From: Gigantopelta aegis
Taxonomy: Eukaryota; Mollusca; Gastropoda; Neomphalida; Peltospiridae
NCBI RefSeq assembly: GCF_016097555.1
Contig: NC_054699.1
Location: 8,194,516-8,258,515, forward strand
DNA length: 64,000 nucleotides
Direction: 5' to 3'
Shown here: positions 21,101 to 44,001 of the stretch, in pieces
Layout: every line of letters begins with the position of its first letter
Position numbering within the stretch: position 1 is the stretch's first letter
The notes under the pieces: model-generated
What the model was told of the DNA's origin: nothing
What the model saw: the letters and a program-made list of their open reading frames with translations, nothing else
The model's database searches: none
Program-made: the position numbers and the translations under genes

Positions 21101-22789
21101 CAGATCATATAGCAGTGTCGGGGTTGGGAGTGATTTTTAAAAGTTACTAGCCACAATTAAAAATTCACTAGCCCTCATTTACTTTAAGTAAATACAATTT
21201 TAATAATTAATAGTAACAGATGTCACCTAAAGATGGAGATAGACCTTAAAAACACTAACAGTGTGTGGTGGTCGCGGAGGGGCAGGATATTTATCAGGGG
21301 TAGGAATTGGTGAACTGTAAAAAAAGAGGAAGTCTAGAGGGGTTCCGGAAATTCTTGAAATCTGCGCCATCCGACATATTTTTGGAAGAAAGGACGATTA
21401 AAATGCGAGAAAACACAGTGTTCCATGAGAGGAAAAAAGCTGATCCGAGGAGAATTCCCACCCATGATTTACATTTAGAAAATAGACTTAACTGCAGCTT
21501 TTGACAAACAAATTTCACTAGCCGTCGGCATGCAATATTAGTTATTTACTAGCCCAACATTGAATATCACTAGCCATGGGAGTGGGGCTACCATAATCTA
21601 ACAGAATCGTGTATCAAGCATTAGGTAAATGTTCCAAATGACAAGTTGTACTCACCGTATGGAGGATTGAGTAGAAAGGATGGCGTGCTTCTCAGAACGA
21701 ATTCTAGACAGGCGAGCAGCAACAGATAAGCATGAATCAAATCCTGGTGGTCCGCTAGGAACGTCCCTGAAACACGAATATATTAGGGCCTGGTTAAGAC
21801 ATATATTGAGAATATATTAGGGCCAGGTTAAGACATATATTGAGAATATATTAGGGCCTGGTTAAGACATATATTGAGAATATATTACGGCCTGGTTAAG
21901 ACATATATTGAGAATATATTAGGGCCTGGTTAAGACATATATTGAGAATATATTACGGCCTGGTTAAGACATATATTGAGAATATATTAGGGCCTGGTTA
22001 AGACATATATTGAGAATATATTACGGCCTGGTTAAGACATATATTGAGAATATATTACGGCCTGGTTAAGACATATATTAAGAATATATTAGGGCCTGGT
22101 TAAGACATATATTGAGAATATATTAGGGCCTGGTTAAGACATATATTGAGAATATATTAGGGCCAGGTTAAGACATATATTGAGAATATATTAGGGCCTG
22201 GTTAAGACATATATTGAGAATATATTAGGGCCTGGTTAAGACATATATTGAGAATATATTAGGGCCAGGTTAAGACATATATTGAGAATATATTAGGGCC
22301 TGGTTAAGACATATATTGAGAATATATTAGGGCCTGGTTAAGACATATATTGAGAATATATTAGGGCCTGGTTAAGACATATATTGAGAATATATTACGG
22401 CCTGGTTAAGACATATATTGAGAATATATTACGGCCTGGTTAAGACATATATTTAGAATTTTCAGTGCCACAGTCTTTTGGGAAGAGGCGTATGTTTGGA
22501 GCCACCAGGTTTAAAAAAAAAAAAGTTCAAGTTGATTTTCACCCCCACAACCCCTTGTGATATACAGTCAAACATAGTCATTTAACCTTTCATTAACTTA
22601 GTCAAGGTTAATCTTCAAAACATCCCACGTAAAAGGAAGATTTTTTTAATCTAACTATTCTTCATGAAACTAAGCAGTAAACTGTAAAAGTGAACATAAA
22701 TACCTTTTGAACGTAAAAACAAAACCCAGCATAACTTTTTACGAAACATAATCCCTTCCGTTTCAGGAATAGGTGGCATGACATTCTCT
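226..22789 (-). CDS. RB1: Retinoblastoma protein RB1, 3' part (exons 6-20), continues past the left edge
   Basis: RB is the nuclear pocket protein that binds E2F/DP and represses S-phase genes until CDKs phosphorylate it. Fifteen exons on the minus strand, all with AG/GT borders and matching phases, read in the order of human RB1: the rest of the N-terminal domain (KKLCWVLFLRSKG, LIHAYLLLLACLEFVL), the linker with TPSK and TPVR, pocket A (RLYYQVMESML; FPWILEVFDLQAYDFFKV), a spacer with MYLSPV, and the start of pocket B (SYCLTLFFNK; NRHIDQ). The motif AAEMYLSPV matches the RB1-specific AADMYLSPV, and the spacer lacks the long p107/p130 insert, so this is RB1 rather than RBL1/2. The last pocket B exons and the C-terminal domain lie outside the window. 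The 5' exons are on the other strand in the neighbouring contig. The introns are packed with SINEs, MITEs and minisatellites. Exon borders are read by eye. Confidence 0.95.
304..970. other. RB1 intron 19, nothing recognised
   Basis: AT-rich intron sequence. I see no gene and no named repeat here. Confidence 0.5.
971..1035 (-). CDS. RB1: RB1 exon 19 (pocket B)
   Basis: Encodes VCRLGYHRIQKLCTMLQVSK then DL, matching human [20 protein letters not shown]. 65 bases, acceptor tttcag, donor gtaagt. Confidence 0.93.
1221..1536 (+). mobile_element. tRNA-derived SINE, head 1 with tail 1
   Basis: Head with GGTAAAGCGCTCACTTGATG and GGTCGGTCTTGGATTGATCC (A- and B-box-like). The body AAAGATCCCTTGCTGCTAAT is shared by all SINEs here. 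The tail is CATATGTCTGATGCC...TGAGTGCGTC...AAATAAAACATTTCC. Confidence 0.85.
1551..1860 (+). mobile_element. tRNA-derived SINE, head 1 with tail 2
   Basis: Same head and body as its neighbour at 1221 but a different 3' end: GTTTGACATC...GTGGTGTCATTAAACAAAAC then AAACTTTAACTTT. Confidence 0.85.
2008..2080. mobile_element. Fragment of the TTAA MITE left end
   Basis: CATACCCTAGTTTTAACCGTGAAAATGGACACT resembles the left end of the element at 34961. Confidence 0.5.
2246..2460 (-). CDS. RB1: RB1 exon 18 (spacer and pocket B start)
   Basis: The spacer holds five SP/TP pairs (SPV, TPRK, SPSK, SPLK, SPVS), three of them full CDK consensus sites, against SPVR and SPKK in the human exon. It ends in SYCLTLFFNK, matching human SLSLFYKK at the start of pocket B. 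Acceptor tttag, donor AAAG|gtaatt. Confidence 0.93.
2909..3150. repeat. (CA)n then (CT)n/CTATAT microsatellite
   Basis: About 37 bases of CA repeat followed by about 200 bases of CT-rich repeat with a recurring CTATAT(CT)n unit, in RB1 intron 17. Confidence 0.95.
3370..3491 (-). CDS. RB1: RB1 exon 17 (pocket A end and spacer)
   Basis: GSTLYTAIEKANG begins where human RB1 has SPLFDLIKQSKDREG. The exon ends NQSSSAAE plus AT, joined to exon 18 as AAEMYLSPV; human has AADMYLSPV. Donor AT|gtagga. Confidence 0.92.
3851..4617. mobile_element. Non-autonomous DNA transposon, about 0.77 kb, long terminal inverted repeats
   Basis: Ends AAAGCCCCAGTCTCACATAC at the left and the reverse complement of AAACCCCAGTCTCACATAC at the right, extended to roughly 28 bases with one indel. 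The inside is rich in TACGA/TACGAC subterminal motifs. No transposase is visible; an open frame of about 100 codons inside shows no recognisable motif. Lies in RB1 intron 16. Superfamily unknown. Confidence 0.75.
4872..4922 (-). CDS. RB1: RB1 exon 16 (pocket A end)
   Basis: 17 codons, HLQSVEHRILDSIVWRE, matching human HLERCEHRIMESLAWLS. Acceptor ttgcag, donor gtaggt. Confidence 0.95.
5089..5388 (-). mobile_element. tRNA-derived SINE, head 1 with tail 2
   Basis: Reads on the minus strand from the head (GGGACGTAGCCCTGTGGTAA) to the tail with GTTGTTAAAC. RB1 intron 15. Confidence 0.8.
5448..6000. mobile_element. Foldback element with about 170-base arms
   Basis: The left arm (5448-5620) and right arm (5825-6000) are inverted copies: ATTTTGATGGC...AAGTGGGTAAC...GGTTACCA...AAGGTCAAATATTGAGGT against its reverse complement. 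Each arm carries several AGGTCA/TGACCT nuclear-receptor half sites. No coding capacity. RB1 intron 15. Confidence 0.8.
6198..6352 (-). CDS. RB1: RB1 exon 15 (pocket A)
   Basis: Encodes SFPWILEVFDLQAYDFFKVL then ESFIKAEPKLPGDVIR, matching human [20 protein letters not shown] then ESFIKAEGNLTREMIK. Acceptor tttcag, donor gtaagt. Confidence 0.97.
6490..6870. repeat. Probable dispersed repeat
   Basis: AAGTTCAAGGGCCATAACTC and AAGTTCAAGGGACATAACTC occur about 115 bases apart with similar surroundings. Looks like a degenerate molluscan interspersed repeat; family unknown. Its left part lies in intron 14 beside exon 14. Confidence 0.35.
6891..7005 (-). CDS. RB1: RB1 exon 14 (pocket A)
   Basis: Encodes EHERLSQNDFSNLLSHENFH then RSLLAACVEIVLMTYGLS, matching human [20 protein letters not shown] then MSLLACALEVVMATYSRS. 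115 bases. Acceptor ttctccag, preceded by a remnant unit of the 24-bp minisatellite. Confidence 0.97.
7042..7353 (-). mobile_element. SINE inserted in the first unit of the 24-bp array
   Basis: Head 1/tail 2 SINE on the minus strand. The flanks TAGACTATACAGT (left) and TAGACTATAGAGT (right) differ at one base; they are either its target duplication or two array units. It separates one remnant unit beside RB1 exon 14 from the main array. Confidence 0.8.
7354..11825. repeat. 24-bp minisatellite, about 4.5 kb, near 185 units
   Basis: Unit ACTATACAGTGACACTTGAA plus TTAG, tandem through RB1 intron 13. Because 24 is divisible by three, one frame on each strand stays open over most of it (repeating TLELDYTV on plus, SLYSLIQV on minus). 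Variants cluster: TATAGAG and CACATGAA near the left end, CACTCGAA at 9360-9610. From about 11280 rightwards, units drift to 24-25 bp with TTAAGACTATACAGTGATGC, as expected at an ageing edge. Not a gene. Confidence 0.98.
12157..12330 (-). CDS. RB1: RB1 exon 13 (pocket A)
   Basis: 58 codons with KCSTNVTVPIANRLKSLKET and TRLYYQVMESML; human RB1 has NCTVNPKESILKRVKDIG and VRLYYRVMESML. Donor ATG|gtgagt. Confidence 0.97.
12445..12773 (+). mobile_element. MITE-1 copy A (CAGGGCTTCTAGA ends)
   Basis: Starts CAGGACTTCTAGATTATC and has the family's inner blocks: TTGGGCTAGTAAATAACTAC, the AAGCTCTGTCTCC region and GCTAGTAAATT. Faces copy B at 12815, making a large inverted pair in RB1 intron 12. Confidence 0.8.
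12815..13097 (-). mobile_element. MITE-1 copy B, inverted relative to copy A
   Basis: Same family in the opposite orientation, ending CATAATCTAGAAGCCCTG. No matching 6-base duplication flanks the pair, so it may be a rearranged double insertion. Confidence 0.8.
13584..13671 (-). CDS. RB1: RB1 exon 12 (pocket A start)
   Basis: Encodes NALNTVAQLKSVLRQASDEP then TSKLKEYFQ, matching human [20 protein letters not shown] then ENLISYF. Acceptor tttcag, donor gtatgc. Confidence 0.95.
14273..14655. repeat. RB1: 31-35-bp minisatellite carrying the RB1 exon 11 donor
   Basis: About eleven units of GATTTAACACATACATTCAC AAAACATACCTGACA on the plus strand. Read on the gene strand, each unit holds CTGTCAG|gtatgttttg, the last bases and the 5' splice site of exon 11, whose own donor is the first unit. 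A few units have mutated donors. Confidence 0.95.
14656..14709 (-). CDS. RB1: RB1 exon 11, 54 bases, carries two CDK sites
   Basis: Encodes ITPSKTKFGSAQPSTPV. TPSK and TPVR correspond to the human CDK sites around T356 (TPRK) and T373 (TPVR), whose phosphorylation closes RB and releases E2F. Phase 2 to 2 and a length divisible by three, so the exon could be skipped in frame. Its donor CTGTCAG|gtatgt is the seed of the 35-bp array that follows. Confidence 0.92.
15305..15597 (-). mobile_element. SINE, variant head with tail 2
   Basis: The body and tail 2 are typical. The head ends ACTCAAGCGAGCACTCAACC and then GAATGACCTAAATCC, unlike head 1; the copies at 20200 and 28905 share this type. Confidence 0.75.
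15701..15991 (-). mobile_element. SINE, head 1 with tail 1, 14-bp target duplication
   Basis: Flanked by GGACATATGGTTAA on both sides (15687-15700 and 15992-16005), an exact duplication that fixes both ends. RB1 intron 10. Confidence 0.92.
16202..16265. mobile_element. End of a TTAA-type MITE
   Basis: AACTCAGGAATGTCCCTTTAA resembles the TTAA-flanked terminal repeat of the element at 34961. Other end not found. Confidence 0.35.
16654..16769 (-). CDS. RB1: RB1 exon 10
   Basis: Encodes LEELWRQYEHLYKQTGDIDE then LLFLKHDPFVMPADYNKN, matching human [20 protein letters not shown] then LDHDKT. 116 bases, donor AG|gtaaca, phase 0 to 2. Confidence 0.95.
17088..17272 (-). mobile_element. SINE with an internal deletion
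   Basis: The tail TTTGTTTTGTTTAATGAAAC is joined directly to the head-side body (CTTTTATATGTACCATCCCA). About 100 bases of the usual middle are missing. Confidence 0.75.
17712..18039 (-). mobile_element. SINE, head 1 with tail 1, 11-bp target duplication
   Basis: Flanked by GTAATTCAGAG (17701-17711) and GTAATTCAAAG (18040-18050). Ends only a few bases from the donor of RB1 exon 9. Confidence 0.88.
18057..18128 (-). CDS. RB1: RB1 exon 9
   Basis: 72 bases, phase 0 to 0, encoding AQTLQHNCMEAFFQGLPQID then GELD, matching human FIPFMNSLGL...GLPEVENL. Acceptor ttttccag, donor gtgagg. Confidence 0.92.
18372..18554. mobile_element. MITE-2 copy (CAGGGCTAG...AGAGCTGGCC)
   Basis: Shares ATTTGGCGAAATAATTTCAT and the ends with copies at 38315, 42059 and 53483. 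Non-coding. Confidence 0.65.
18840..18934 (-). CDS. RB1: RB1 exon 8
   Basis: Acceptor ttttttag and donor gtagag. Encodes ...EHRTQGMLSMLAEQFGASVE, matching human NDTRIIEVLCKEHECNIDE. 95 bases, phase 1 to 0. Confidence 0.92.
19106..19416 (-). mobile_element. MITE-1 copy C with 6-bp target duplication
   Basis: CAGGGCTTCTAGGATA to CTAGAAGCCCTG, flanked by AATATC on both sides (19100-19105, 19417-19422). 311 bases, no coding capacity. Confidence 0.9.
19428..20205. repeat. 56-bp minisatellite, about 14 units
   Basis: Unit TTATAAAATGTCTACAGACT then TGCTTCCCGAAGGATTAGAG and TTACAGTTTTGTTTTG. Its right edge runs straight into a SINE tail (TTTTGTTTTGTTTAAC), so the unit may have formed at that junction. 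RB1 intron 7. Confidence 0.95.
20206..20456 (-). mobile_element. SINE, variant head with tail 2
   Basis: Typical body (GGTCTTTTATATGCACTTTC). The head side ends in CTACAGACTGAGCCAGACCC, which seeds the array to its right. Confidence 0.75.
20457..20725. repeat. 52-bp array of a SINE head, five units
   Basis: CCTACAGACTGAGCCAGACC then CTGCTCCTCTGTAGTTCACT and TCAGGCACGCAC, repeated five times with almost no divergence. It begins at the head of the SINE to its left. Confidence 0.92.
21015..21600 (-). mobile_element. MITE-1 copy D carrying a foreign insert
   Basis: The family sequence is interrupted at about 21293-21470 by some 180 bases (from AGGGGTAGGAATTGGTGAAC to about CCCACCCATGATTTACATTT) not present in the other copies. 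Confidence 0.75.
21656..21766 (-). CDS. RB1: RB1 exon 7
   Basis: 111 bases encoding TFLADHQDLIHAYLLLLACL then EFVLRSTPSFLLNPPY, matching human [20 protein letters not shown] then LLKEPYK. Donor gtgagt. A 34-bp minisatellite begins about 12 bases upstream of its acceptor. Confidence 0.95.
21778..22455. repeat. 34-bp minisatellite, about 20 units
   Basis: Unit TATTAGGGCCTGGTTAAGAC ATATATTGAGAATA, with AGGGCCAGG and ACGGCC variants. Starts about 12 bases upstream of the RB1 exon 7 acceptor, in intron 6. Confidence 0.95.
22704..22789 (-). CDS. RB1: RB1 exon 6
   Basis: Acceptor ttttacag; starts with the A that completes the AG left by exon 5 in the other contig. Encodes ENVMPPIPETEGIM then FRKKLCWVLFLRSK, matching human ALVLKVSWITFLLAKG. 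Donor AAAAG|gtattt. About 1.04 kb from the first gap. Confidence 0.93.
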
Positions 22790-22794
22790 CTGTA

Positions 22795-22965
22795 AAAGAT
22801 AAAAACATCTATTAACCATTGGCTCTTAGGTGTCCAGCAGTCGATAATTCTGATACAGTCTTAGAGGAAACATTCTACATTTTTCTGTTACTAGTAAGTG
22901 ATATTTTACATAGAACATCCTACCAACAGGACAGCACTTATCACAGCTTTTGATATACCAGTGAG
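22795..22965 (-). mobile_element. Degenerate SINE fragment
   Basis: Recognisable body: TTAGAGGAAACATTCTACAT, then ACCAACAGGACAGCACTTAT. Abuts the acceptor of RB1 exon 6. Confidence 0.6.
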
Positions 22966-23476
22966 TCATGGGGTACTGGTTTTTCACCTAAAACTCATTT
23001 ATGGTGCTTGCAGATAACTTATGCATCACAGTGCAATCAACATCAGGTTCACATATAAATCAATTTCTAGTGTATTAATTCAACTGGATTGTATGGCTAT
23101 GGGATTTGGGTCATACATATATATATCACATAGCATTCAACTTCTAGTGTACTAATTGCATTGGCTGGTATTGCTGTGGCAACTCGGTCATCACCATAAT
23201 GGAGAAACCATTACAATGATGTTATTCTGGTGCAATCTCTAGGTTTCTTTTCGTTAGTTGGAGAATTTAGCTCAGTCGATAGCTCACACACAGTATGATT
23301 TTTGCCATGCGTGGCCACAAATATCAGCTACGATAGATATTTTCCTCAAGACCAAGGCAAAAAAACCTTAGCAAATGCACCCATACACAAGAGCTAGAAG
23401 TTAAGCAAGAAGCCTCAAGCAACCATTTACTCAGCTGAATGCTCTCGTATATTTGGTAGGATTTAAAAAACTACAG
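22966..23476. other. RB1 intron 5 side, nothing recognised
   Basis: Unique-looking AT-rich sequence between a SINE fragment and MITE-1. No exon seen. Confidence 0.4.
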
Positions 23477-23809
23477 CAGGGCTTCTAGAATTTTTATAAA
23501 ATCCACTAGCCATGGGATCAGCGATTTAAAAAATTTACTAGCCATGATTAAAAATTCACTGGCCCAACCAAGTTAATACAATTTTACTAAATAGTAGTAA
23601 TAATCAGATATGCCACCTAAAGAAGGAGCTTAAAAACACTAACATTGGAGGGTGAGGACAGGATATTCATATTTACAAAATAGACTTAACTGCAACATTT
23701 GACCAAAAAAATTCACTAGCCGTTGGGCATGGCATTAGCAGTTATCTACTAGCCCAACATTGAATATCACTAGCCATGGGAGTGGGGCCACCATAATCTA
23801 GAATCCCTG
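23477..23809 (-). mobile_element. MITE-1 copy E with 6-bp target duplication
   Basis: CAGGGCTTCTAGAATTTTTA to CTAGAATCCCTG, flanked by CTACAG on both sides (23471-23476, 23810-23815). Ends some 20 bases before the first gap. Confidence 0.9.
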
Positions 23810-23830
23810 CTACAGTCACATCACACACAG

Positions 23831-24030
23831 NNNNNNNNNNNNNNNNNNNNNNNNNNNNNNNNNNNNNNNNNNNNNNNNNNNNNNNNNNNNNNNNNNNNNN
23901 NNNNNNNNNNNNNNNNNNNNNNNNNNNNNNNNNNNNNNNNNNNNNNNNNNNNNNNNNNNNNNNNNNNNNNNNNNNNNNNNNNNNNNNNNNNNNNNNNNNN
24001 NNNNNNNNNNNNNNNNNNNNNNNNNNNNNN
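23831..24030. other. Assembly gap, 200 N (contig A / contig B)
   Basis: Exactly 200 N, the same length as the second gap, so it is a placeholder of unknown true size. RB1 exon 6 ends the left contig and an AADAC-like exon opens the right contig; both genes lack their upstream exons here. Confidence 0.98.
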
Positions 24031-24150
24031 ACAGACTAGCACCCGAACACTCTTTTCCAAAAGGCTTTGACGACTGCGTGACGGCTACGAAACACGTGCT
24101 GAATAATGGTATCAGCTACGGAGTAAATCCAAACAAGATCGCAGTTGGTG
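24031..24150 (+). CDS. AADAC-like, penultimate exon (5' end in gap)
   Basis: 120 visible bases ending GTT GGT G|gtaaat. The G joins GT of the next exon to give GlyAsp of the GDSAGG motif. Confidence 0.92.
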
Positions 24151-25900
24151 GTAAATGAATATTTGTTGTAATAATAGTTTAGTGACTGCTTGCTTAAGCT
24201 TGTTATTGATAGGACAGTTGCATAAAAGAACAAGTGATAAAAAAATCACAAACATACGACGATGTACCAAACTATGGTACCTAGTTCTTTCTGCATTTTG
24301 TTTTTTAATGGTCCCAAACTTTCAAAACGTATCTGCAAAGTCTGATTTGGATTTGCCTCATTTCGGGAGTTTTGTGCTTTACTCCAGTATTAAACATAAT
24401 ATTAACCAGTGCATCTTCTCAGCCTGGTCAAAATTAATGAAGCGGTGTGGTTGCGAACAAGCTTTCATTCTGTCAAGCCAGTCCTAGTCAGGTCAGGTCA
24501 GGTCAGGTCAGGTCATAGGGCTTTACGTGCACATTCAGAACAAGCTGTTGTAGCACACGCCTATCCTGGGCGCAAGAGCTCCTCCGTCCAGGAAAGGTGG
24601 GGGGGGGGGGACCGCCTGCACTGGCAGGTGCAAGGGAGCACCAGCAGCCCGACCAAGGTCGGTGTGTGTGTGTGTGGGGGGGTGATGGTGCTATGGGATT
24701 TTGAATGGAGCAAAGTATTATGCCAAAGAGAGAAAAAGTGCGCAAATTTGGTTGAGGAAATTGGGCGCAATTTTGAACGGTCGGTCAAAAAGAAAGTTCC
24801 AGAGCTAGTATAGGTTTTGACATTAGTGGGAGTCCTGGGAGTGGCAGTCCTCCTATAGACGGTGAAGAAAAAATAGTCTTGTGTCGTGCTTGCATTGGTC
24901 ATACATACCTGACACATTCATGTATTCTTGTGTAGTGTGAATATTGTCAGTGTACACTGAAGGTCCACAGCATGTTGGTGAGGTGTAATCATTTTGAACA
25001 GACGAGGACAGATATGTTGACTTTTATTAAGAATTTTAATATGTTTACCTGTGATTCTTATATACTCAAAATGTTAATATACTTGTGATATACATTTCAC
25101 AGCTTTTTACGATGTTTTAATTTTCTATTGATGTTGATCATCGATTATCCTTATTTTCACCTTTTTCTGACACCCAATATGGATATATTTGTGATGGGGT
25201 GTCGTTAAACATTCATTCATCCATTCTGTGTCGCTCTACAGGTGACAGTGCAGGAGGAAACTTGGCTGCTGCCGTGACCATCAAGTTCCGAGACGAACGA
25301 ATAGAGCCGCGGATCAAAGCCCAGTTATTGATATACCCATCACTGCAAGTCTGCTCTCACTCGCTGCCGATGACTAAACAGCGACTAGCAGACTCTGCTG
25401 ACGAGTTCCTCTTTTTCTACGGCTTGCTGGGGATGTGGCTCAGTCTGAACAAACACCAGCAAGAGATGATGGAATCGGGAAAATACATCACTCCAGAGCT
25501 GGCTGAAAAATGCAAACGATTGGTCGACGTCGACCTTATTCCAGCCAATCTCGTTCAGAAAGGTTACGTCCGTGACGATCACGTGGCTACGCCAATAGAT
25601 GATGACGTCATATCTATGTCAAAACTGATAGAAGACCCGCGAGTTTCGCCCCTCCTTGTTGAAGATCTTTCAGAACTTCCGCCTGCGTACGTGTTCACTG
25701 TGCATTGGGATTATATACGAGACCATGGGATAATTTATGCCAAGAGACTGGAGAAGGCGGGAAACACAGTCGTGTGGCATCCTGAGACGGACACTTTCCA
25801 TGGCGTGTTGAACACGTGTCATACAGAACCTGTCTTTAAGACTTGTCCAAAACTCATAGGCAATATTACTGAGTTTTTAAAGAAACCATTTGCAGAATAG
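24031..25900 (+). CDS. Arylacetamide deacetylase / neutral cholesterol ester hydrolase-like, 5' truncated
   Basis: The family are alpha/beta-hydrolases (hormone-sensitive-lipase type) of the ER membrane that cleave acyl esters and amides of lipids and drugs. Two exons remain. The first (24031-24150) opens inside the gap with RLAPEHSFPKGFDDCVTATK; the second (25242-25900) starts at the nucleophile elbow GDSAGGNLAAAV. The triad is visible: Ser in GDSAG, Asp in HWDYIRDHG and His in DTFHGVL. The HGG oxyanion motif and the N-terminal membrane anchor would lie upstream and are missing. The C-terminus (FLKKPFAE, then a stop) has a normal length for the family. Which member (AADAC, AADACL or NCEH1) cannot be told from this part. 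About 8 kb separate it from RB1 exon 1. Confidence 0.92.
24488..24680. repeat. (AGGTC)n run and flanking probable dispersed repeat
   Basis: CAGGTCAGGTCAGGTCAGGTCA, followed by CATAGGGCTTTACGTGCACA, a C-run context and (GT)n. Probably a dispersed repeat in the AADAC-like intron; family not known. Confidence 0.45.
25170..25230 (+). mobile_element. SINE-3 3' tail fragment
   Basis: ACACCCAATATGG...GGGGTGTCGTTAAACATTCA, then TTCATCC, the same (ATTC)n tail type as the element at 32877. Confidence 0.6.
25242..25900 (+). CDS. AADAC-like, last exon
   Basis: Acceptor gctctacag; 219 codons including TAG at 25898-25900. Holds the catalytic Ser, Asp and His motifs. A SINE tail (GGGGTGTCGTTAAACATTCA) lies just upstream of the acceptor and supplies part of its surroundings. 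Confidence 0.95.
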
Positions 25901-26308
25901 ATTACATGTAAATATAGCATCCGTGTATAGAAATAATAACTAGTATTAAAACAGCCATACCTTAATAAGCCTAATTAGAGGACAGTTTCTTTCTTTTTTA
26001 AAATCAGGTTGTCATAGTAATTAAACATTTCTTTATAAGAAACCAAAGTCTATTTTGAGTGTTGTTGTTGTTGTTGCTGCCTATATTGTTTGATTTGTTT
26101 TGGGACGTTTTTGTTGTTTTTGTATATTTTTTAAAACTATTATTATTATTATTATTATTATTTAAAAACAAATTTACGATATATAAATTGTTTAAGTTTA
26201 ATATATCTTGAAGGGGAAATTACATGGTCATGTGATTTAAAACTACCAAAGGTATTCTAAAAAAAAACATCTCCAGAAATGATATTGCACCCTGGCAACA
26301 TATATATA

Positions 26309-26457
26309 GAGAATAATACATGAGTGGCCATTAGATACCATTTATCTCACAGCGAGTTGTTTTAAAATGTATCTAACGAGCGAAAGCGAGTTTGATACGT
26401 TTTTAAAGACGAGTTGTGAGATAGATGGTATCTAACGGATACGAATGTATTATTCTA
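26309..26457. mobile_element. Foldback MITE, about 150 bases
   Basis: The left arm AGAATAATACATGAGTGGCC then ATTAGATACCATTTATCTCA and the right arm are near-perfect inverted copies around a short centre (AACGAGCGAAAGCGAGTT). A second, interrupted copy lies at 32849-33330. Confidence 0.8.
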
Positions 26458-26774
26458 TTTCTTACATATCCTCAAAAACCAGGTTTTAAGCAAATTGTAT
26501 TATCATTTTGCGTCACAGACTCATGATTGTCAGGTTAACTATACGTCACAGTGTAATCTATTTCCACCGTGTTGTTTTTCATTGGCTGCATGGCACTGGT
26601 GACCTGGTCATCACTTAGGAGCAGCCAGTCGAATGTCTTGAAATTGTTAACACACAGGTGTGTAAGAAAAACATTTAATGGTTCATGGGACACTATCATT
26701 TGTGGAGTTATTCCTAGAGCTATGCCTCGGGTTATTTCCTGAGTTCATATATGACAGTTCATATAGTTATTGTT

Positions 26775-26995
26775 GAACAAGGGAAGAAGAAGGAAATGTT
26801 TTATTTAACGACGTACTCAACACATTTTATTTACGGTTATATGGTTATGGACCACACAGATTTTGAGGGAGGAAACCCGCTGTCGCCACTTCATGGGCTA
26901 CTCCTTTCGATTGGCAGCAAGGGATCTTTTATATGCACCATCCCACAGACAGGATACCACATACCACGGCCTTTGATATACCAGTCGTGGTGTGT
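26775..26995 (-). mobile_element. SINE, tail 1, head truncated
   Basis: AAATGTTTTATTTAACGACG to the body and AGTCGTGGTG; the head is missing. Confidence 0.75.
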
Positions 26996-27049
26996 TGAAC
27001 AAGGGATAATCATTTCTTTAATGAAAACTCCACCGTTTCGATTTAGATC

Positions 27050-27590
27050 TTCTGTCAACGTTCCTTTGAAGTGTATTGTCTCCTACAGTTTTGATTGAAT
27101 TGTTCTGAAACTTGGTACAATGATCCTCCACAAACTAACAGAGATATTTAGAAACTTTTTTTAATTTTTATTAAATTAAAAAATAATTAAATTGAAAATT
27201 CAAAAGTCTATCTTATCCTACAGGTTTGATTGGATAGTTCTGAAATTTAGTGTAACTTATTCTCAGGGGGTAATCTTCACAAACTAATAGAGAGATATTT
27301 TGAAAAAGTTTGAACGTTTAATTTTTTAATTTTTATGAAATGTTATTAAATATTTGATAGTTCTGAAGCTTGGTACTACTTTTCTCTGGATCAGTATTCA
27401 CAAACTAATAAAGAGATGTTTTGAAACTTTTGAATTTTTATTAAATTTAAGCAGTTTAAATAGAAAATGAAAATATAAAAGTGTATCTTCTCCTAGAATT
27501 TTGATCGAAACTTGGTATTTTGATTCTAATGGAGTTTATTTTGCAATTTAGGAACCTTTATTTAAAAAAAAAAAAAAAATTAACATAAAT
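27050..27590. repeat. Degenerate tandem repeat, about four units
   Basis: TCCTACAGTTTTGATTGAAT then TGTTCTGAAACTTGGTAC and CACAAACTAA...AGAGATATTT recur about every 120-135 bases with heavy divergence. Part of the 8 kb between the AADAC-like gene and RB1 exon 1. Confidence 0.6.
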
Positions 27591-27814
27591 TAAACAAATT
27601 CTTAAACCTGACATATGGATGTTCTAAGGTCTTCTTTACAACTTAATTAATTATCTTCTACTGACAAAATAGAAAATTAAATAGTGGAAATCTCTCATTA
27701 ACATAGTTTATGAATTTTCTATTGATCCGATTGTATAGATTTATGGATATATTTAACAAGTAGGAACAAGATTTAACGGCCCTGTTATTTATGTAGTTTC
27801 AAATAAGTTTGGGT

Positions 27815-27882
27815 TTTGTTTTATTTAACGACACGACTAAACCACATTGATTAATTAATCATTGGCTATTGGATGTCGAGGT
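27815..27882 (-). mobile_element. SINE tail fragment
   Basis: TTTATTTAACGACACGACTA then ATTGGCTATTGGATGTCGA, tail 2 type. Confidence 0.65.
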
Positions 27883-27905
27883 TATTCACCATCATTAACT
27901 CCATG

Positions 27906-28116
27906 CAGTGCCAGATTTATAAGGGGGCAATTGCCCCGGGCCCCCCTGCCAGAGCTCCCCCCCCCCCCCCGACAAAGGACTTCCTTTATAAAAAAAAAAG
28001 TAATAATTATAAAATTAGTTCTTTTTTTTATTATTTGTCATGTAATTTAATTTCTATGTTGAGGGGCCCCCGAACCTGAAGTGCCCCGGGCTCCCCAAGG
28101 TCTAAATCCGGCTCTG
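27906..28116. mobile_element. hAT-type MITE with 8-bp target duplication
   Basis: Ends CAGTGCCAGATTTA and TAAATCCGGCTCTG (inverted), with ACTCCATG on both sides (27898-27905, 28117-28124). 211 bases, GC-rich ends, no transposase. An 8-base duplication and CAG..CTG ends are typical of hAT. Confidence 0.88.
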
Positions 28117-28756: not shown

Positions 28757-28904
28757 TTACATATAACAATAAACCAATGGGTTATTTAAATACTACAGAG
28801 GTCAACCTACGTGTAATCATCAAAGAAAGATATCAAAAAGCATATCAGAATTTTGTAGTATTTTTTTAATGAGGAACTATTCCCTAAACCGCTACAATAA
28901 GTAA

Positions 28905-34229: not shown

Positions 34230-37200
34230 GTAAGTGAAAAAAAGTCAATTTTATTGCAAAATGTAGGCACTTCCCCGTTTCCGAGTTTGCCACTGGGTAA
34301 CCTCCCCTATATAGTTTGTACTGTTTGTAGAGTTTTATTCAGTGTAAGTCCAATGTCAAAGTAATATTTGTGCATTGGCGGATGCGGAATTATTCTAGGG
34401 AGGGATGCATCAATGAAAATGCATCTATAGTCCGTCCCCTCACCTACAAACAATTTAATGTTTGATTTTTGTTTGGTTTTTGTCAATCATTTCAGTTTGG
34501 TTTGACATATGAAGAAAAGGAAAAGTGTTTTGGTAAGTCTAAGAGCCAAAAAATACAATTTTTGTGACCAATTTAGATAACGGAAAGAGTTTGACCCGTA
34601 CCCCTCAATATCAAAGGCTCTAACCCTAACTCTATCCCTAAAACTACCCAAACTATTAGAGTATCAGGTCGTTTTGTAACCATACCAGTTCGTACCCAAA
34701 GGCATGCCAGTTCGTAACCAGAGGAACATCGGCATACCAGTTCGTACCCACATTTGTACATGTTATTTAATGAAAAACAAAACAATAAAAATCCAAGCCA
34801 ACTGCATTTTAATAATTAGCGATTAGAAATTGTCACAAAGAATCATGTCAAGCGAAGTCAGCTTATTTGTTGATATATTTCAAACACATAGCCTTTTTCT
34901 TTTTACATGACAAATTTTTTTTAATGTACAAACATAATAATATTTACAAACATAGTAATATTAAAGGGACATACCCTAGTTTCAAGCCGTGAAAATTTAC
35001 ACTAACTTTAATTAATATACAAACCTGTAATACATTTGGATAAAATTATAACTGAGTGAAACATGAGTCTGTGACTTTGAAATGGTGAAATACCCTCTAA
35101 AAATAGACTAAAACTCGACTCCATAACTGTTATTTCTCAGACGCAAGTGCGTTTTTAAAAATATGAGAAATACATTTTGCGATATTAAAAACACCAGGAT
35201 GACCAAAAACATTTTGAATGTACAGAAATTGATAATGTAAACCATAAAATCTAAGTAAAGTATGATTTCAGTTATCAAAAACGGCTATAATAGTAAAAAA
35301 TATGCATTAGTGTTTAAAAACTAGGGTTTGTTACTTTAACATAATGATATATAGAGATATTGAAACCCAGTACATTCATACAATTGTATTTATGGTAAAG
35401 GTAAATGTGAAATTAATAAAAACTTATATGTTGGTATATTTCTCAAAACTTTCAAAATGTGACTTATTCCCTATTTAGCACCGAGTCCTTCAATTATTGA
35501 CAGGTGAAAGTAGCATTATGAACTTTTAAATTTGCATATGACATGAAATTTGCATACCGTTATTACACAGGTTGATACAATCAAATATTAAATGGGTTTA
35601 TGACAAAAGAATTGCTCTTTGGCTACGAAAAGGTATGCTTTTTGGTTACGAAAAGGTATGCTTTTTGGTTACGAAACGGCATGCTTCAGTGATGCACAGC
35701 ACATAATTGCTCATTTAATGCTTATAAAAGTGATTATTACAACACATTTTTTGCTAAATGTTACAATATGTTTGTAATATAATATTATAATTGTGTATTT
35801 AAAAAATATACTAATGTTAGGTGTAATGTATGACATTATTTAATTGGTTACGAACTGGTATGCTAGCTGTTACGAAACGGTATGGTACGAATGGGTTTGG
35901 GTACGAAACATCTAGAAACCATTGAAAATGGGGTACGGGTTGAACTCATGCCTAGATAACAATCGGCTCAAAAACAAATAACTTGTAGTGGTAGGACTTT
36001 CCTTTGGCACTGTCACATATAAAAAACATAAATACTTATAATAGGGTTATGGTTAGTGACAATGCCGGTATGAGGTCGTTTCGCCCTTATTCCCGATCGC
36101 CACGTGTAGTTTCGCCCTCTATATAGGGTTGTTTTGCCCTCATGTTTATGTTTGTGAATGATGAATAAATTTGTTTACGTGACTCTAGTTGCAAATCAGA
36201 TATAGGTTATCAATTTGTAACCCTTTATCAACCATTTGCAAATTTGCGTAATTGGCTTCTGTAATATCCATTGACGTGTCATGTTTATATCTATGCTGAA
36301 GAAGATTTATGATGGAATATTAAAAGGTCCATTTGCTTCAGTTTACATTTAAATACATGCAGTTTTCTGCTGTCTGCCAGTTTGGTTTTTTATGGAATAC
36401 TCTTCAAGAGGGGTGAAAGACTCTAAAATATTAATATAAAATCAATGATCTCCAGTGGTATCTTTAAACAATCAAATAATAATAATAATAAAATAATATG
36501 ACGTCATCACATTTGCATTTATATCATAACATGTTATTACATTCAACGGTTGTTAGATTAAGTCATATCCTTTCACCCCAAAGTCAAAATGGCAGCCGAC
36601 AAAAAATTCCATGCTTTTTGCCCTGTGCGATCTCAGTGAAGTCGATACAGGTGACATGGTTATCATCTAGTATGTGGAATCCATGCCATTGTAAAAAAAA
36701 AAATCTAGATTTCTGTCTGGGTAAAATCTAACGAAAAATAAAGGTAGGAGCAATTTATTGTAAACTTTACGTTTAAGTCTACAACCTTGTTGCCTGTTAG
36801 GTGTCTATTGCGACAAAATTTAGGGTAAAAATTTTTTATATGTCAAATTTTGCTTTGACTATATTCAGGGTTTTGTTTCAATGGAATGTGTTTTTGCTGT
36901 GGACATTTTCTAAATTGCAGGGGTTGCCCATCGGATGGCCTATAGTGTTGACCTATGGTATTCAGGGATGAATGTAATGTTTTAAAAAAGGCACTTACAA
37001 TATTTAATAATACACTAATTAAGTATCGGTGCTATGTGCCATGGCCCATGAGATGTCTATGAATTCTAATCACATTTGAAACTGAAATAACTTATATGTT
37101 TCTATTTAATTTTGATTGCTATATAGACTTATGTCTCATCCGGAGCATTCGCATATCACACTACCTGGCTAATCGGCCAATGTAAATAATGACTTAACAT

Positions 37201-40200
37201 TTAAAAAGCAAATTTTATGTGTTGTTTTGCCACTGTTACAAAGGATAAAATCCAGTTAGTGCACCAAGACAGCTTGTATATCAAAGGCCGTGGTATGTGC
37301 TATCTTGTCTGGGATGGTGGACATAAAAGATCCTTTGTTACTAGTTAATGAAAAAAATGTAGTGGGTTTCAGGCCTTCTAGAATAGTTATAAAAATCCAC
37401 TAACCATGGGATCAGTGATTTAAAAAATTTACTAGCCATGATTAAAAATTTACTAGTCCTACTTTAAGTAAATACAATTTTAATAATTGGATATGTCACC
37501 TAAAGAAGGAGATCAAGCTTAAAACCCCATAGATTTGACAGGAGGAATGGACAAGATATTTGAACACATTTACAAAATAGACTAATACAGCATTTGAACC
37601 TTTTTTTCACTAGCCATGGGAGTGGGGCTACTATAATGTAGAAGCCCTGGGGTTTCTTCTGAGACTTATTTGTCAAAATTACCAAAATATTTGACATCCA
37701 ATAGCTGATTATTAATCAATGTGCTTGTCAAACAAAACAAATTTCTAAAAGATAAAAGGAAATTAAATTTTAATTATTAGTCAATAGTGACCAGTACAAT
37801 AGTTAACATTTTTTAGTTTGAACCAATTTTCAGATATATACATGTAGGAGAGTGGCAGCCTAATTTAAATAAAACATTTAATAGGCAAGTACTAAATTTC
37901 AAATGTTTTAGCGACATTGTATAAAATTTAGCAGTTGGCTAATTTGGCAATGGACAGGGTGTCTCCTGATAAAATAATTGGATCTACACATATATTTTAT
38001 TTTTCAGATCAACCAATGAAACGATGGCCATTGTTTCCAATGGTTACACAATTCCGTGTGAGGACGAAATAATGGCGGTGTGTCGCGATTTGTCGATCAT
38101 GAAGGACATCGAGAAGAAAGCCTTTTCTCAACTCAAGTTGTTGTCACCCGCAACCAGGGAACATCAAGTTTGTATTCATTCAAGATCAGGGTTTTTTTTT
38201 GGAGGGGTGTGGGTGCTTTCATTTAAGTTCAAGGAATAATTTTAATGTACTGGATCCAAAACAAAAATAGTCCTGATGTAACCTTGGAAATTTTATGTAA
38301 TTGATAATGTTCACTGGGCTAGTCCTGGCACTCACCGAATTCACCAGATGCCATTTTTAATTATTCTTGGCACCTTTTTGCCGTGGACTATATTCAGTGT
38401 TCAAAACTTCAAGGATTGAGAACAACAGGCAAGTTTTATTTTCATTTGGCGAAATGATTTCATGTAATAATTTATATTTTGTTTTGAAAATAATTGAGTT
38501 TGTGCAAGTTTAATAGATAATTTCAACAAACGTTTTCTTTTCAAAATCTTGATAGGTGATATTTTTAGTCAAGTGAAAATTGATTAGCAACTACTCTTTA
38601 GTATCTTGTGTAGCGAGTCACGACGCGATACTGAACCTAATGTTCCCTAAAATTGGCCCCAATTTTTTTTTTACTCAGAGTTAGCCCTGATTTGTTCTAT
38701 AACATTTAGTGAAATATCTTAAAAATATCAGTGAAATAAAAGTGTCGATTAGTCACCGAGTGACGATAACACATTTTAGAGTGAAAATTTCACTACTTCA
38801 CTCTAAAATGTGTTATCGTCACTGTAGAAAGTGTTTGTTTGCAATCATATCACACTTAACACACACGCGCGACTCGTGAGATATGATTGCAAACTTCACT
38901 CAATGAGATATAAATCATAATTGACAAAAAACATGAAATATCTGCTATACATTGCATTTCAACACATAACCAATTAGTGGTTTGTTTCAATTTAAATTTA
39001 CGTATACAAGTCTATGGGATGGTTTGTGAGGGATATTGTTCCCTGTGCGGCACATCAGAAGTGCTTATATGTCACCGTATTCTGATATTGTGCCATGTTG
39101 GTTTCAGGAACGATATTCGTTTCTGCATTTTAATTTTTTTTATTTATTTAGTTTTTACATTGGGCGTGGCTCAGTGGTAAAGCGCTCACCCGATGCATGG
39201 TCGGTCTGGGATCCCATTGGGCTATTTTTCGTTCATTCCAGCGCATCACGACTGGTATATTAAATGGCGTGTCTATATGCATAATATATTATAACGGATC
39301 CCTTGCTACTAATGGAACAAATTTAGCAGGTTTTCTCGCTAAGACTAAAAATTGTCAAATATTTCACATCCAATAGTCGGTGATAAATATATCAATGTGC
39401 TCTTGTGGTGTTGTTAAACAAAACAAACTTTAATTTCAACTTTTTTATTTACAGTTTCCAGTGAACGAGTCAATAGCCTGTGCGTTGTATATGACTATTG
39501 TGGATGTACGGTGAGTCTGAGGGAATTCATCGGAGAATATGAATAACGGTTGTTATGCCAGCATCAAAATATGAGGCAGTCGAACCAATCAGTCACTTAC
39601 TAATTGTTTGAGTGGAATTTCGGAAGCATAATTTAGCAATGTTTATATGCCGGCATTAATACTGGTCACCTGAATAAAATATATTTATTTATTATTAACC
39701 TTCTGCCTACAGGATTAATTTTTGACAAAAAAACTTGTCGAGAGGGTACAGGTTTATACATTTTTCACTTGAAATGTTTATAAATCTATAAAATATTCAG
39801 GGCTTCTAGATTATGGCAACCCCACTCCCATGGCTAGTGATGTTCAGTGTTGGGCTAGTAAATAACTACTATTGCCATGCCAGACAGGGCTTCTAGATTA
39901 TGGCAACCCCACTCCCATGGCTAGTGATGTTCAGTGTTGGGCTAGTAAATAACTACTATTGCCATGCCAGACAGGGCTTCTAGATTATGGCAACCCCACT
40001 CCCATGGCTAGTGATGTTCAGTGTTGGGCTAGTAAATAACTACTATTGTCATGCCAGACAGGGCTTCTAGATTATGGCAACCCCACTCCCATGGCTAGTG
40101 ATGTTCAGTGTTGGGCTAGTAAATAACTACTATTGCCATGCCAGACAGGGCTTCTAGATTATGGCAACCCCACTCCCATGGCTAGTGATGTTCAGTGTTG

Positions 40201-43200
40201 GGCTAGTAAATAACTACTATTGCCATGCCAGACAGGGCTTCTAGATTATGGCAACCCCACTCCCATGGCTAATGATGTTCAGTGTTGGGCTAGTAAATAA
40301 CTACTATTGTCATACCAGACAGGGCTTCTAGATTATGGCAACCCCACTCCCATGGCTAGTGATGTTCAATGTTGGGCTAGTAAATAACTACTATTGCCAT
40401 GCCTGACAGGGCTTCTAGATTATGGCAACCCCACTCCCATGGCTAGTGATGTTCAGTGTTGGGCTAGTAAATAACTACTATTGTCATGTCAGACAGGGCT
40501 TCTAGATTATGGCAACCCCACTCCCATGGCTAGTGATGTTCAGTGTTGGGCTAGTAAATAACTACTATTGCCATGCCAGACAGGGCTTCTAGATTATGGC
40601 AACCCCACTCCCATGGCTAGTGATGTTCAGTGTTGGGCTAGTAAATAACTACTATTGCCATGCCAGACAGGGCTTCTAGATTATGGTAGCCCCACTCCCA
40701 TGGCTAGTGATGTTCAGTGTTGGGCTAGTAAATAAATACTATTGCCATGCCAGACAGGGCTTCTAGATTATGGCAACCCCACTCCCATGTCTAGTGATGT
40801 TCAGTGTTGGGCTAGTAAATAACTAATATTGCCATACCAGACAGGGCTTCTAGATTATGGCAGCCCCACTCCCATGGCTAGTGATGTTCAGTGTTGGGCT
40901 AGTAAATAAATACTATTGCCATGCCAGACAGGGCTTCTAGATTATGGCAACCCCACTCCCATGGCTAGTGATGTTCAGTGTTGGGCTAGTAAATAACTAC
41001 TATTGCCATATCTGACAGGGCTTCTAGATTATGGCAACCCCACTCCCATGGCTAGTGATGTTCAGTGTTGGGCTAGTAAATAACTACTATTGCCATGCCA
41101 GACAGGGCTTCTAGATTATGGTAGCCCCACTCCCATGGCTAGTGATGTTCAGTGTTGGGCTAGTAAATAACTAATATTGCCATGCCTGACAGGGCTTCTA
41201 GATTATGGCAACCCCACTCCCATGGCTAGTGATGTTCAGTGTTGGGCTAGTAAATAACTACTATTGCCATGCCAGACAGGGCTTCTAGATTATGGTAGCC
41301 CCACTCCCATGGCTAGTGATGTTCAGTGTTGGGCTAGTAAATAACTAATATTGCCATGCCTGACAGGGCTTCTAGATTATGGCAACCCCACTCCCATGGC
41401 TAGTGATGTTCAGTGTTGGGCTAGTAAATAACTACTATTGCCATGCCTGACAGGGCTTCTAGATTATGGTAGCCCCACTCCCATGGCTAGTGATGTTCAG
41501 TGTTGGGCTAGTAAATAACTACTATTGCCATGCCTGACAGGGCTTCTAGATTATGGTAGCCCCACTCCCATGGCTAGTGATGTTCAGTGTTGGGCTAGTA
41601 AATAACTAATATTGCCATGCCTGACAGGGCTTCTAGATTATGGCAACCCCACTCCCATGGCTAGTGATGTTCAGTGTTGGGCTAGTAAATAACTACTATT
41701 GCCATGCCTGACGGTCAAATGTTGCTGCTATAGTCTATTTTGTAAATATTAATATCCTAACACCCACCCTTCAATGTTAGTGTTTTTAAGCTCTGTCTCC
41801 CTGTTTAGGTGACATCTGATTATTACTATTGTTTAATGAAATTTTATTAACTTAAAGAGAAGTAGGGTTAGTGAATTTTTAATAGTGGCTAGTAAATTAT
41901 AAAAATCACTGATCCCATGCTAGTGGGCTTTATACAAATTCTAGAAGCCATGATAATGTTCATATGTGAAAGGTATAAGTATTTTTTTCGTAAGTTGCTG
42001 TGGTTTAAAATTACATTTTTTTTTTTTTTAATAAAGTCACATTTACTTACACACTTTTCAGGGCTAGCTCTGGGTGAGCAAAACAGTTCGCCAAATTGTC
42101 TATTAAACTTAAAAAATTGCAGAAATCAACAGTTATTTTCTAAAAAAAATGTCAATTATTACATGAAATTCTTTCGCCAAACTAAAGTAAAATTCGCCAA
42201 CTGCTTTCAAAATTCGCGAGTGTCAGAGCTTGCCCTGCATATGTCTGGTATTTATGGCAATTCTTCTTAATTACTTTGTTTTGCTAGCCACATTTTTGGG
42301 GCCAAACAAACTATGATACAATATTTCGTGATTTTCGTTGTTGTTAAAATGGTCCAAATTATTTGTGGAGGGGATAAGGTAGTAAGATCCCAGATATAAA
42401 AAAAAAAAAGAAGAAGATTTTAAGGCCAGTTTGGTGTTTGCCTCCTGGATCCACCAGTGCAATAGCTGATGATTATTCAATGTGGTCAGACTAAGCCCAC
42501 AAGCATTGATAGCCACAAGAGACAAACACCAGTCGTTGCAGTTACAAGGACTGGGATGTGGAGATGGACAGCGAAATAAGTTGAAAAATAGGAGGAACTG
42601 CCAGATTGTTAACCACAAGAGACAAACACCAGTCATGATTGAAGTTACAAGGACTGGGGTGTGGAAGTGGACAGTGAAAGAAGTTGAAAAATAGGACGAA
42701 CTGCCAGATTGTTAACCACAAGAGACAAACACCAGTCATGATTGAAGTTACAAGGACTGGGGTGTGGAAGTGGACAGTGAAAGAAGTTGAAAAATAGGAG
42801 GAACTGCCAGATTGATAACCACAAGAGACAAACACCAGTTGTGATTGAATTTACAAGGACTGGGTTGTGGAGGTGGACAGCGAAAGAAGTTGAAAAATAG
42901 GAGGAACTGCCAGAAATGACATGGAAGTCAAAGGAGAGAAAGGACAGGGGGTAGCGGGATATAAAAAAGTTAATCAATGTGCTCTAGTGGTGTAGTTGAT
43001 CAAAACCAATGTTTTTTTCTGCTGTTTATTTCAGGATGCCGTATGGACCTCATGATCCGCAGCTCCAGCGCGGGTTTCTTGAAGCACCTTGTGTCACGGT
43101 GTCAGACATTCTGCAGAGGACAAACATAAAGTGAGTTCTTTGGTTTTCGGTAATACAGTGAAACTCCGCTAAACCGGACACCCTCTGGACTAAGTAAAAA

Positions 43201-44001
43201 GTCAGACATATGGTTACGGACCACACAGATATTGAGAGCAGAAACCCGCTGTCGCCATTTCATGGGCTGCTCTTTTCAATTAGCAGCAAGGGATCTTTTA
43301 TATGCACCATCCCACAGACAGGGTAGTACATACCACAGCCTTTGATATACCAGTCGTGATGCACTGGCTGGAACGAGAAATAGCCCAATGGGCCCACCAA
43401 CGGGGATCGATCCCAGACCAACCGCGCATCGAGCGAGCACTTTACCTCTGAGCTACGTCCCGCCCGTCTTGGCTTGAAGACATGTGGCAATGACCAGGAA
43501 CAACTTAACTTTTTTCTCCGATGTTTTGTCTTGACATCATCTCTTATTTTAAAGGTCTTCTGGATTATGGTAGCCACACGCCCATGTCTAGTGCTGTTCA
43601 ATGTTGGGCTAATAAATAACTAAATAACTACTGTTATCATGCCTGATGGCTATTGTAAAAAACAGTAAAGGATTTTTAAGATCTATCTCCCTCTTTGGGT
43701 GACATACCTGTGATTATTCACATTAATAAAATTATATTTATTAAAGTAGGACTAGTGAATTTTTAATTATGGCAAGCAAATTTTTTAAATCACTGATCCC
43801 ATGGCTAGTGGATTTTTATAACAATTCTAGGAGCCCTGTCTTATTACGTTTATGTTGATGTTTTGCCAGCGTGACGACGCTCTTCCACCGCATGAAGACC
43901 GTGAAGGAGAGTTGTGACGTGAGCGATGCCGTCAGTCAACACCTCCTGCTGTTGGAGAAGAAGTACTGCATTGTGTCGGCTCTGTTCCACACCTTCGAGA
44001 G
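34180..44001 (+). CDS. RB1: Retinoblastoma protein RB1, 5' part (exons 1-5)
   Basis: Five plus-strand exons (34180-34229, 38008-38167, 39455-39510, 43035-43130, 43870-44001) give the N-terminal 164 codons plus two bases. The last two exons read LQRTNI...LFHRMKTVKE...SDAVSQHLLLLEKKY...ALFHTFER, which follows human RB1 LQKNIEISVHKFF...[22 protein letters not shown]. Exon 2 resembles the human stretch beginning TALCQKLKI, and exon 3 the stretch ELWGICIFIAAVD. The part ends in phase 2 (GAG AG|gtttgt) just before a minisatellite and a 200-N gap. The next RB1 exon in protein order (22789-22704, minus strand, contig A) starts with the A needed to complete the codon, so both parts are judged to be one gene. 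Exon 1 is the least certain exon; it is chosen for its ATG, its consensus donor and the right phase. Confidence 0.9.
34582..35952. mobile_element. 1.37-kb TIR element with 8-bp target duplication, host of a TTAA MITE
   Basis: TAGATAAC flanks both ends (34574-34581, 35953-35960). The terminal inverted repeats GGAAAGAGTTTGACCCGTAC and GGCATGAGTTCAACCCGTAC (right end reversed) lead to subterminal repeats of ATACCAGTTCGTAACC on both sides. No transposase frame. The TTAA MITE at 34961-35339 sits inside. RB1 intron 1. Confidence 0.85.
34961..35339. mobile_element. TTAA-flanked MITE, full copy
   Basis: TTAA, then AGGGACATACCCTAGTTTC, and at the other end AAACTAGGGTTTGTTACT, then TTAA. The target choice TTAA is that of piggyBac-type elements. 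Fragments of the family occur at 1-169 and 2008-2080. Confidence 0.85.
36000..37250. other. RB1 intron 1, nothing recognised
   Basis: AT-rich. An open frame of 77 codons at 36498-36731 has no support as an exon. TTTCGCCCT is repeated at 36088-36150 for no clear reason. Confidence 0.4.
37255..37745 (+). mobile_element. SINE split by MITE-1 copy F
   Basis: The body (GGCCGTGGTATGTGCTATCT to AATGTAGTGGGTTT) and the tail (TTTGACATCCAATAGCTGAT, then CAAACAAAAC) are separated by the MITE at 37370-37649. Confidence 0.88.
37370..37649 (-). mobile_element. MITE-1 copy F nested in a SINE, 6-bp target duplication
   Basis: CAGGCCTTCTAGAATAG to GTAGAAGCCCTG with GGGTTT on both sides (37364-37369, 37650-37655). 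280 bases. Confidence 0.9.
38008..38167 (+). CDS. RB1: RB1 exon 2
   Basis: Acceptor ttttcag, then 160 bases encoding ...EDEIMAVCRDLSIMKDIEKKAF..., which resembles the human [22 protein letters not shown] region. Ends in phase 0 at CAA|gtttgt, a weak donor of the same form as that of exon 5. Confidence 0.85.
38315..38545. mobile_element. MITE-2 copy
   Basis: GGGCTAGTCCTGGCACTCAC and ATTTGGCGAAATGATTTCAT, like the copies at 18372 and 42059. The right end is unclear. Confidence 0.55.
38750..38940. repeat. Two adjacent large hairpins (palindromic element)
   Basis: GTGACGATAACACATTTTAG is followed by its reverse complement within 65 bases. Next, GTTTGCAATCATATCACACT pairs with GTGAGATATGATTGCAAAC. 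The second hairpin and its right flank recur at 48600-48715. Confidence 0.8.
39160..39442 (+). mobile_element. SINE, head 1 with tail 2
   Basis: GGCTCAGTGGTAAAGCGCTC then GGTCGGTCTGGGATCC, ending TGTTGTTAAACAAAACAAAC. Ends about ten bases before the acceptor of RB1 exon 3. Confidence 0.82.
39455..39510 (+). CDS. RB1: RB1 exon 3
   Basis: Acceptor tttacag and donor CG|gtgagt. Encodes FPVNESIACALYMTIVDV, matching the helix ELWGICIFIAAVD of the human N-terminal domain. 56 bases, phase 0 to 2. Confidence 0.85.
39798..41952 (+). mobile_element. MITE-1 copy G, its left end amplified into an 87-bp satellite
   Basis: About 22 tandem units of 87 bases (39798-41712), each starting CAGGGCTTCTAGATTATGGC and ending ATTGCCATGCCAGA. 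After the last unit the rest of a normal MITE-1 follows once (GTCAAATGTTGCTGC to TTCTAGAAGCCATG). The units match the first 87 bases of MITE-1, so the array is a terminal duplication within one copy. RB1 intron 3. Confidence 0.95.
42059..42237. mobile_element. MITE-2, best copy
   Basis: CAGGGCTAGCTCTGGG at the left and CAGAGCTTGCCCTG at the right are inverted repeats. 179 bases, no clear target duplication. Confidence 0.7.
42485..42920. repeat. 103-bp tandem repeat, about four units
   Basis: Unit AGTTACAAGGACTGGGGTGT then GGAAGTGGACAGTGAAAGAA and CACAAGAGACAAACACCAGT. RB1 intron 3, about 100 bases before the exon 4 acceptor. Confidence 0.92.
43035..43130 (+). CDS. RB1: RB1 exon 4
   Basis: Acceptor tttcag and donor AA|gtgagt. 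Encodes MPYGPHDPQLQRGFLEAP and then VTVSDILQRTNI, the latter aligning with human FTFTELQKNIEI. 96 bases, phase 2 to 2. Confidence 0.88.
43195..43472 (-). mobile_element. SINE, head 1, tail 1 truncated
   Basis: From the head (CGGGACGTAGCTCAGAGGTA, minus strand) to CATATGTCTGAC at its broken 3' end. Confidence 0.82.
43548..43838 (+). mobile_element. MITE-1 copy H with 6-bp target duplication
   Basis: TCTTAT on both sides (43542-43547, 43839-43844). The left end is slightly changed, the right end is CTAGGAGCCCTG. Ends 31 bases before RB1 exon 5. Confidence 0.85.
43870..44001 (+). CDS. RB1: RB1 exon 5, its donor copied into a minisatellite
   Basis: Acceptor ttgccag; 132 bases encoding VTTLFHRMKTVKESCDVSDA and then VSQHLLLLEKKYCIVSALF, HTFE plus AG. 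The last bases TTCGAGAG and the donor gtttgt are repeated about 25 times in the intron that follows. Reading through the first donor gives FERFVT and a stop. Confidence 0.93.

Follow-up and report, generated by a model that had tools for sequence, protein, structure and literature searches.

The window considered here is a stretch of 64,000 nucleotides of the genome of the gastropod Gigantopelta aegis (RefSeq assembly GCF_016097555.1, 1.149 Gb in 5216 contigs), located at C1:8194516-8258515, where C1 stands for the window's own sequence record (NC_054699.1). It contains an RB1-like gene in two opposed halves and part of an esterase gene. Sequence was also examined for 30 kb leftwards and 80 kb rightwards of the window, coordinates beyond 64,000 being window coordinates extended to the right. 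Runs of N separate contigs A to E of this region, named from left to right (Table 1), and no gap was found within the 30 kb examined to the left of the window. Contig B is flanked on both sides by gaps of a fixed size, 200 N each, as had been stated in an earlier reading made from the letters of the window alone (the sequence-only reading).

An RB1-like gene in two opposed halves

Models of the RB1-like gene were built from splice signals and reading frame, with exon numbers that presume an unseen first exon. Sixteen internal exons were modelled, four on the forward strand of contig B and twelve on the reverse strand of contig A within the window. Spliced in the order B(+) then A(-), they form one frame of 614 amino acids with zero stops, which bears out the two opposed halves described in the sequence-only reading. 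The 20 exons counted there could not be reproduced, and modelling turned up no first exon carrying a start codon. Candidate 3' exons for pocket B and the C-terminal region, with peptides read by eye, lie on the reverse strand out to some 6 kb beyond the left edge of the window.

The exon ends at 44001 (+) and at 22789 and 22704 (-) carry AG and GT flanks, exactly where they had been placed. At the 44001|22789 junction the AG left by exon 5 and the A from exon 6 form an arginine codon (phase 2), so that the proposed fit of phases holds. The junction falls within a single N-terminal domain, Pfam DUF3452, of which the B part supplies profile positions 6-64 and the A part positions 98-133; the halves are thus consecutive and without overlap, again as claimed. 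This domain scores 47.9 bits for the joined exons, versus 23.7 bits for the B part and 28.1 bits for the A part taken apart, and pocket A (RB_A) scores 209 bits (E 8.2e-62). The best PDB match of the joined protein is human RB1 (4elj, 218 bits, versus 111 bits for RBL1, 4yoz), the human RB1 alignment continues across the junction, and no RBL2 chain is present among the 15 PDB hits. By these comparisons the gene is closer to RB1 than to RBL1 or RBL2, and it is, as far as it is seen, an ordinary animal member.

A 140-bp query covering exon 5 (43862-44001) has a single match in the 1.149-Gb assembly, namely itself. With a 1081-bp DNA query around exons 4-5, for which the best 40 of 8114 candidates were scored, 47 of the 48 listed matches fall in the part of the query that is a dispersed repeat, some 265 bp long. 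A search of the assembly with RB_A gave nine matches in three places: the window, the unplaced contig C2370, and C14, where the match is taken by us to be an RBL relative.

Tandem repeats accompany the gene. Some 26 minisatellite units, most of them 39-42 bp long, occupy 43992-45061 (+) and extend into the gap between contigs B and C. The unit opens with the last 10 nucleotides of RB1 exon 5 and the GT donor; there are 19 exact copies of GAGAGGTTTGTC, the first of which is the real exon 5 donor, and an in-frame TAA is met when reading continues beyond that donor. A second exon-end-derived repeat in RB1 is located at C1 ~8190870-8191800 (-), 2.7-3.6 kb left of the window, where tandem units of about 102 bp copy the end of a later RB1 exon and keep an open frame across the copies (both by eye). 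An RB1 intron contains a 4.5-kb satellite of 24-bp period (7354-11830), with similar repeats in C2370; its open frames of 997 and 982 codons are due to that period.

Table 1. Contigs, gaps and modelled exons in and beside the window (window coordinates).
Feature	Position	Strand	Location or size	Remarks
Contig A	up to 23830		at least 53.8 kb	no gap
Gap A/B	23831-24030		200 N
Contig B	24031-45061	-	21.0 kb	strand agreeing with A, from RB1 and AADAC exon order
Gap B/C	45062-45261		200 N
Contig C	45262-84554		39.3 kb
Gap C/D	84555-84754		200 N	outside window
Contig D	84755-100073		15.3 kb
Gap D/E	100074-100273		200 N	outside window
Contig E	right of D		37.5 kb
Gap right of E	137774-140273		2500 N	outside window
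RB1 exon 2	38008-38167	+	contig B	AG/GT flanks
RB1 exon 3	39455-39510	+	contig B
RB1 exon 4	43035-43130	+	contig B
RB1 exon 5	43870-44001	+	contig B
RB1 exon 6	22704-22789	-	contig A	phase 2 join to exon 5
RB1 exon 7	21656-21766	-	contig A
RB1 exon 8	18840-18934	-	contig A
RB1 exon 9	18057-18128	-	contig A
RB1 exon 10	16654-16769	-	contig A
RB1 exon 11	13584-13671	-	contig A	pocket A begins here
RB1 exon 12	12157-12330	-	contig A	pocket A
RB1 exon 13	6891-7005	-	contig A	pocket A
RB1 exon 14	6198-6352	-	contig A	pocket A
RB1 exon 15	4872-4922	-	contig A
RB1 exon 16	3370-3491	-	contig A
RB1 exon 17	2246-2460	-	contig A
AADAC-like exon	24031-24150	+	left end of contig B	cut by gap or begins within 4 nt of it
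AADAC-like next exon	25242-25900	+	contig B	GDSAGG to stop
AADAC-like HGGG exon	82365-82488	+	contig C	outside window
AADAC-like exon after HGGG exon	83630-83693	+	contig C	861 bp before right end of C; ends in phase 2 before GTAAGT

The esterase gene at the left end of contig B

Contig B opens inside an exon of a gene encoding an alpha/beta hydrolase 3 family esterase, presumably AADAC-like. Its 5' exons, looked for by their HGGG motif on both strands, are absent from the window, which at first seemed to be evidence against turning contig B; they were then located beyond the window at both sides of the gap between contigs C and D, about 60 kb away. Besides the pair in contig C (Table 1), contig D carries the same two exons on its reverse strand, where about 530 bp separate the nearer exon from D's left end. 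The forecast of the sequence-only reading that the true neighbour of the esterase should appear at a free end thus came true, the missing exons being oriented as expected if B is turned.

The Abhydrolase_3 profile scores 186.6 bits for the C and B parts joined; apart, the C part scores 35.4 bits (best stretch at profile positions 1-36) and the B part 129.7 bits (best stretch at 38-113). The protein belongs to this family, and its HGGG and GDSAG motifs sit in different contigs. The joined protein, which includes one inferred residue at the junction, also aligns to a PDB esterase with no gap at that point.

When the two parts were compared with the assembly, seven places were listed for the 5' part, four of them above 90% identity (the two exons in C and the two in D), and 13 for the 3' part, with two above 90% identity, both in B. 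At each of the three other loci matching the 5' part (C1:1.57 Mb, C1:31.0 Mb and C14:47.65 Mb), matches to the 3' part follow on the same strand. About 1.8 kb separates the HGGG exon from the RLAPEH exon at C1:1.57 Mb; in C, the contig ends 2.07 kb after the HGGG exon, so the gap at C's end is probably short. Pieces of the 3' part without a 5' match are also found at C1737, C1:1.42 Mb and C1:1.69 Mb, and the pairing of C/D with B is therefore based on contig position and frame besides elimination.

Second copies on both flanks of contig B

Alignment of contig C with the sequence on its right gave 13 pieces over 400 bp, every one inverted: 12 lie in contig D (ten at 92-97% identity) and one in contig E. 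The firm block pairs C 79520-83899 with D 90419-85082 and contains the AADAC-like exons; by eye, the last bases of C, reversed, start some 45 bp into D. Since C and D share inverted blocks, contig C is either itself reversed or a retained haplotig. The simplest reading is that C and D are probably two alleles of one locus, with the AADAC-like exons facing each other across the gap. Contig D as placed fits the order A - B reversed - D, and C fits only if it is reversed too; the local order is thus faulty at more than one point.

The unplaced contig C2370 (20,348 bp) carries a second copy of RB1's A part. In the RB1 sense it tracks contig A from position 23116 down to 4841, and it matches eight of A's 12 exons (6, 7 and 10-15); exons 8, 9, 16 and 17 have no match in it. 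Exon 7 of C2370 has 22 nucleotides missing, and the other seven shared exons are ungapped, with 10 synonymous and 4 non-synonymous codon differences from A. The AG and GT of all eight are kept (by eye). Exons 8-9, absent from C2370, amount to 167 nucleotides. About 31 nucleotides after exon 15, C2370 diverges from A, and its last kilobase matches the left end of contig E. In a search with its positions 19600-20000 (401 bp), where the best 40 of 515 candidates were scored, full-length matches were to itself and E's left end only, and 40 of the 42 listed matches span just the first 57-69 bp. The RB1 copy in C2370 is thus broken in three places (in exon 7, at exons 8-9 and after exon 15). A broken allele, a chimeric contig and a partial duplicate are all candidate explanations of it. 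It ends short of exon 5, and so gives no decision on the 44001|22789 junction.

Other features of contig C within the window include a RING/B-box (TRIM-like) frame at 49242-50715 (-), with matches below the Pfam cut-offs, and an uninterrupted 355-codon Tc1-like DDE transposase (DDE_3, HTH_Tnp_Tc3_2) at 56985-58049 (+). Directly before the transposase is a reverse transcriptase (RVT_1, 55954-56358) resembling those of long interspersed nuclear elements; from 58170 the sequence resembles, by eye, the rest of the same element, as if the transposon had inserted within it.

Orientation of contig B

The two RB1 halves almost certainly belong to one RB1-like gene cut by a scaffolding error, contig B having been placed the wrong way round with respect to contig A. 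The split is very probably an assembly artefact of a common kind, not new biology. One turn of B rejoins RB1 to A and the AADAC-like gene to D. Because the genes at the two ends of B are unrelated and both require the same turn, the esterase gives independent support to the inversion of 24031-45061 relative to A that the sequence-only reading had proposed from RB1; that proposal is right in substance and is now better supported than when it was made. Its further claim, that turning B puts the RB1 exons on one strand in order, stands for RB1; as a remedy it is insufficient if C stays adjacent, for in the order A-B-C the AADAC-like gene is still cut. To join that gene, either B is turned to meet D, or B and C are both turned to meet each other.

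With B turned, its right end (exon 5 and the minisatellite) would face A's right end (exon 6), and its left end, in the middle of the AADAC-like gene, would face D's left end or C's right end, the site of the 5' exons. Both genes would be restored by the order A - B reversed - D, in which C is an allelic copy that was retained, and equally by A - B reversed - C reversed, in which the copy is D. The parts of B that were searched for (exon 5 and the AADAC-like 3' exons) are single-copy, and both flanks of B have second copies (C/D and A/C2370). B's right end lies in the minisatellite; ends of this kind break contigs, and Hi-C contacts orient a 21-kb contig only weakly. We infer that a short contig was misoriented from Hi-C contacts, an error to which the haplotigs kept on both sides contributed; a gap of 200 N is the default of YaHS, and Hi-C and YaHS were presumably used here.

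Several observations weigh against this account. No sequence crossing either gap was found: exon 5 and B's AADAC-like exons occur once each, and C2370 stops short. All 25 matches of the exon 5 minisatellite in the window lie in B and none at an end of A or C, which is neutral. The first AADAC-like exon of B can be read in two ways: either from base 1, where RLAPEH follows the end of a Tyr codon (Tyr-Arg-Leu-Ala, one residue lying partly within the gap), or from an AG four bases further on. The frame is kept in each case. The match between C and D is firm in one block only and patchy elsewhere, two stretches of C match one stretch of D, and two of the pieces in D fall below 90% identity (74 and 88%). 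Instead of alleles, C and D could be an inverted repeat in the genome. Contig E matches C in one 402-bp piece only, which leaves the arrangement to the right of D uncertain as well.

Sequence tests relative order only, and the order C(+) - B(+) - A(reversed) restores both genes equally, in which case the misplaced piece would be A (or the whole block) and B would be correctly oriented to the chromosome. We consider this unlikely, if worth keeping in view: A is the longest piece seen, with at least 53.8 kb ungapped, D as it stands fits an unturned A, and a single turned contig, B, suffices. The breaks in C2370, which lacks 22 nucleotides of exon 7 and exons 8-9 and leaves A just past exon 15, might be taken to favour a real inversion, in the species or in one haplotype, that splits RB1 and the AADAC-like gene in a correct assembly. 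Such an inversion is very improbable, as both of its breakpoints would be 200-N gaps, which are joins without sequence support, and it would cut two genes at once, yet the splice sites and frames of both are intact; in addition, the contig at the right-hand join, C, lies inverted with respect to D. The same features of C2370 would suit a locus that is truly rearranged in one haplotype, a possibility to which we give little weight; in that case one of the RB1 alleles in a wild animal would be broken, and the scaffolder would have been misled by real structural variation, not by chance. Two separate partial RB genes or pseudogenes, lying head to head by chance, would explain halves on their own strands within about 42 kb. 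This is hardly credible for halves that do not overlap, match in phase and join in a stop-free frame, when exon 5 has no second copy and the RB_A matches lie in three places.

If a single RB1-like gene has been divided by the reversal of contig B, automatic annotation is likely to truncate the esterase and to report RB as two partial genes, and comparative studies of tumour suppressors could record RB1 as lost or split. The correction is local, and genes cut at the ends of short contigs provide a free test of orientation for scaffolds.

In its N-terminal domain and pocket A, and with human RB1 as its best PDB match, the gene resembles RB1, the gene of the retinoblastoma protein. The pairs C/D and A/C2370 look like one locus kept adjacent or unplaced, as in the false duplication by retained haplotigs treated in PMC9516828; in contrast to these, here one copy is inverted and adjoins the other, its presumed allele. 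Misplacement and misorientation affect short contigs especially, according to a passage of a Hi-C study (PMC9861903), and an excerpt of the YaHS publication gives 21 inversions for YaHS in a simulated human assembly (PMC9848053). Contig B resembles the misoriented contigs of Hi-C scaffolds in these excerpts (PMC9861903, PMC9848053) in being short and bounded by fixed-length gaps, with a gene cut at a gap revealing the turn; it differs in that two unrelated genes, one per end, reveal the turn and second copies lie on both sides.

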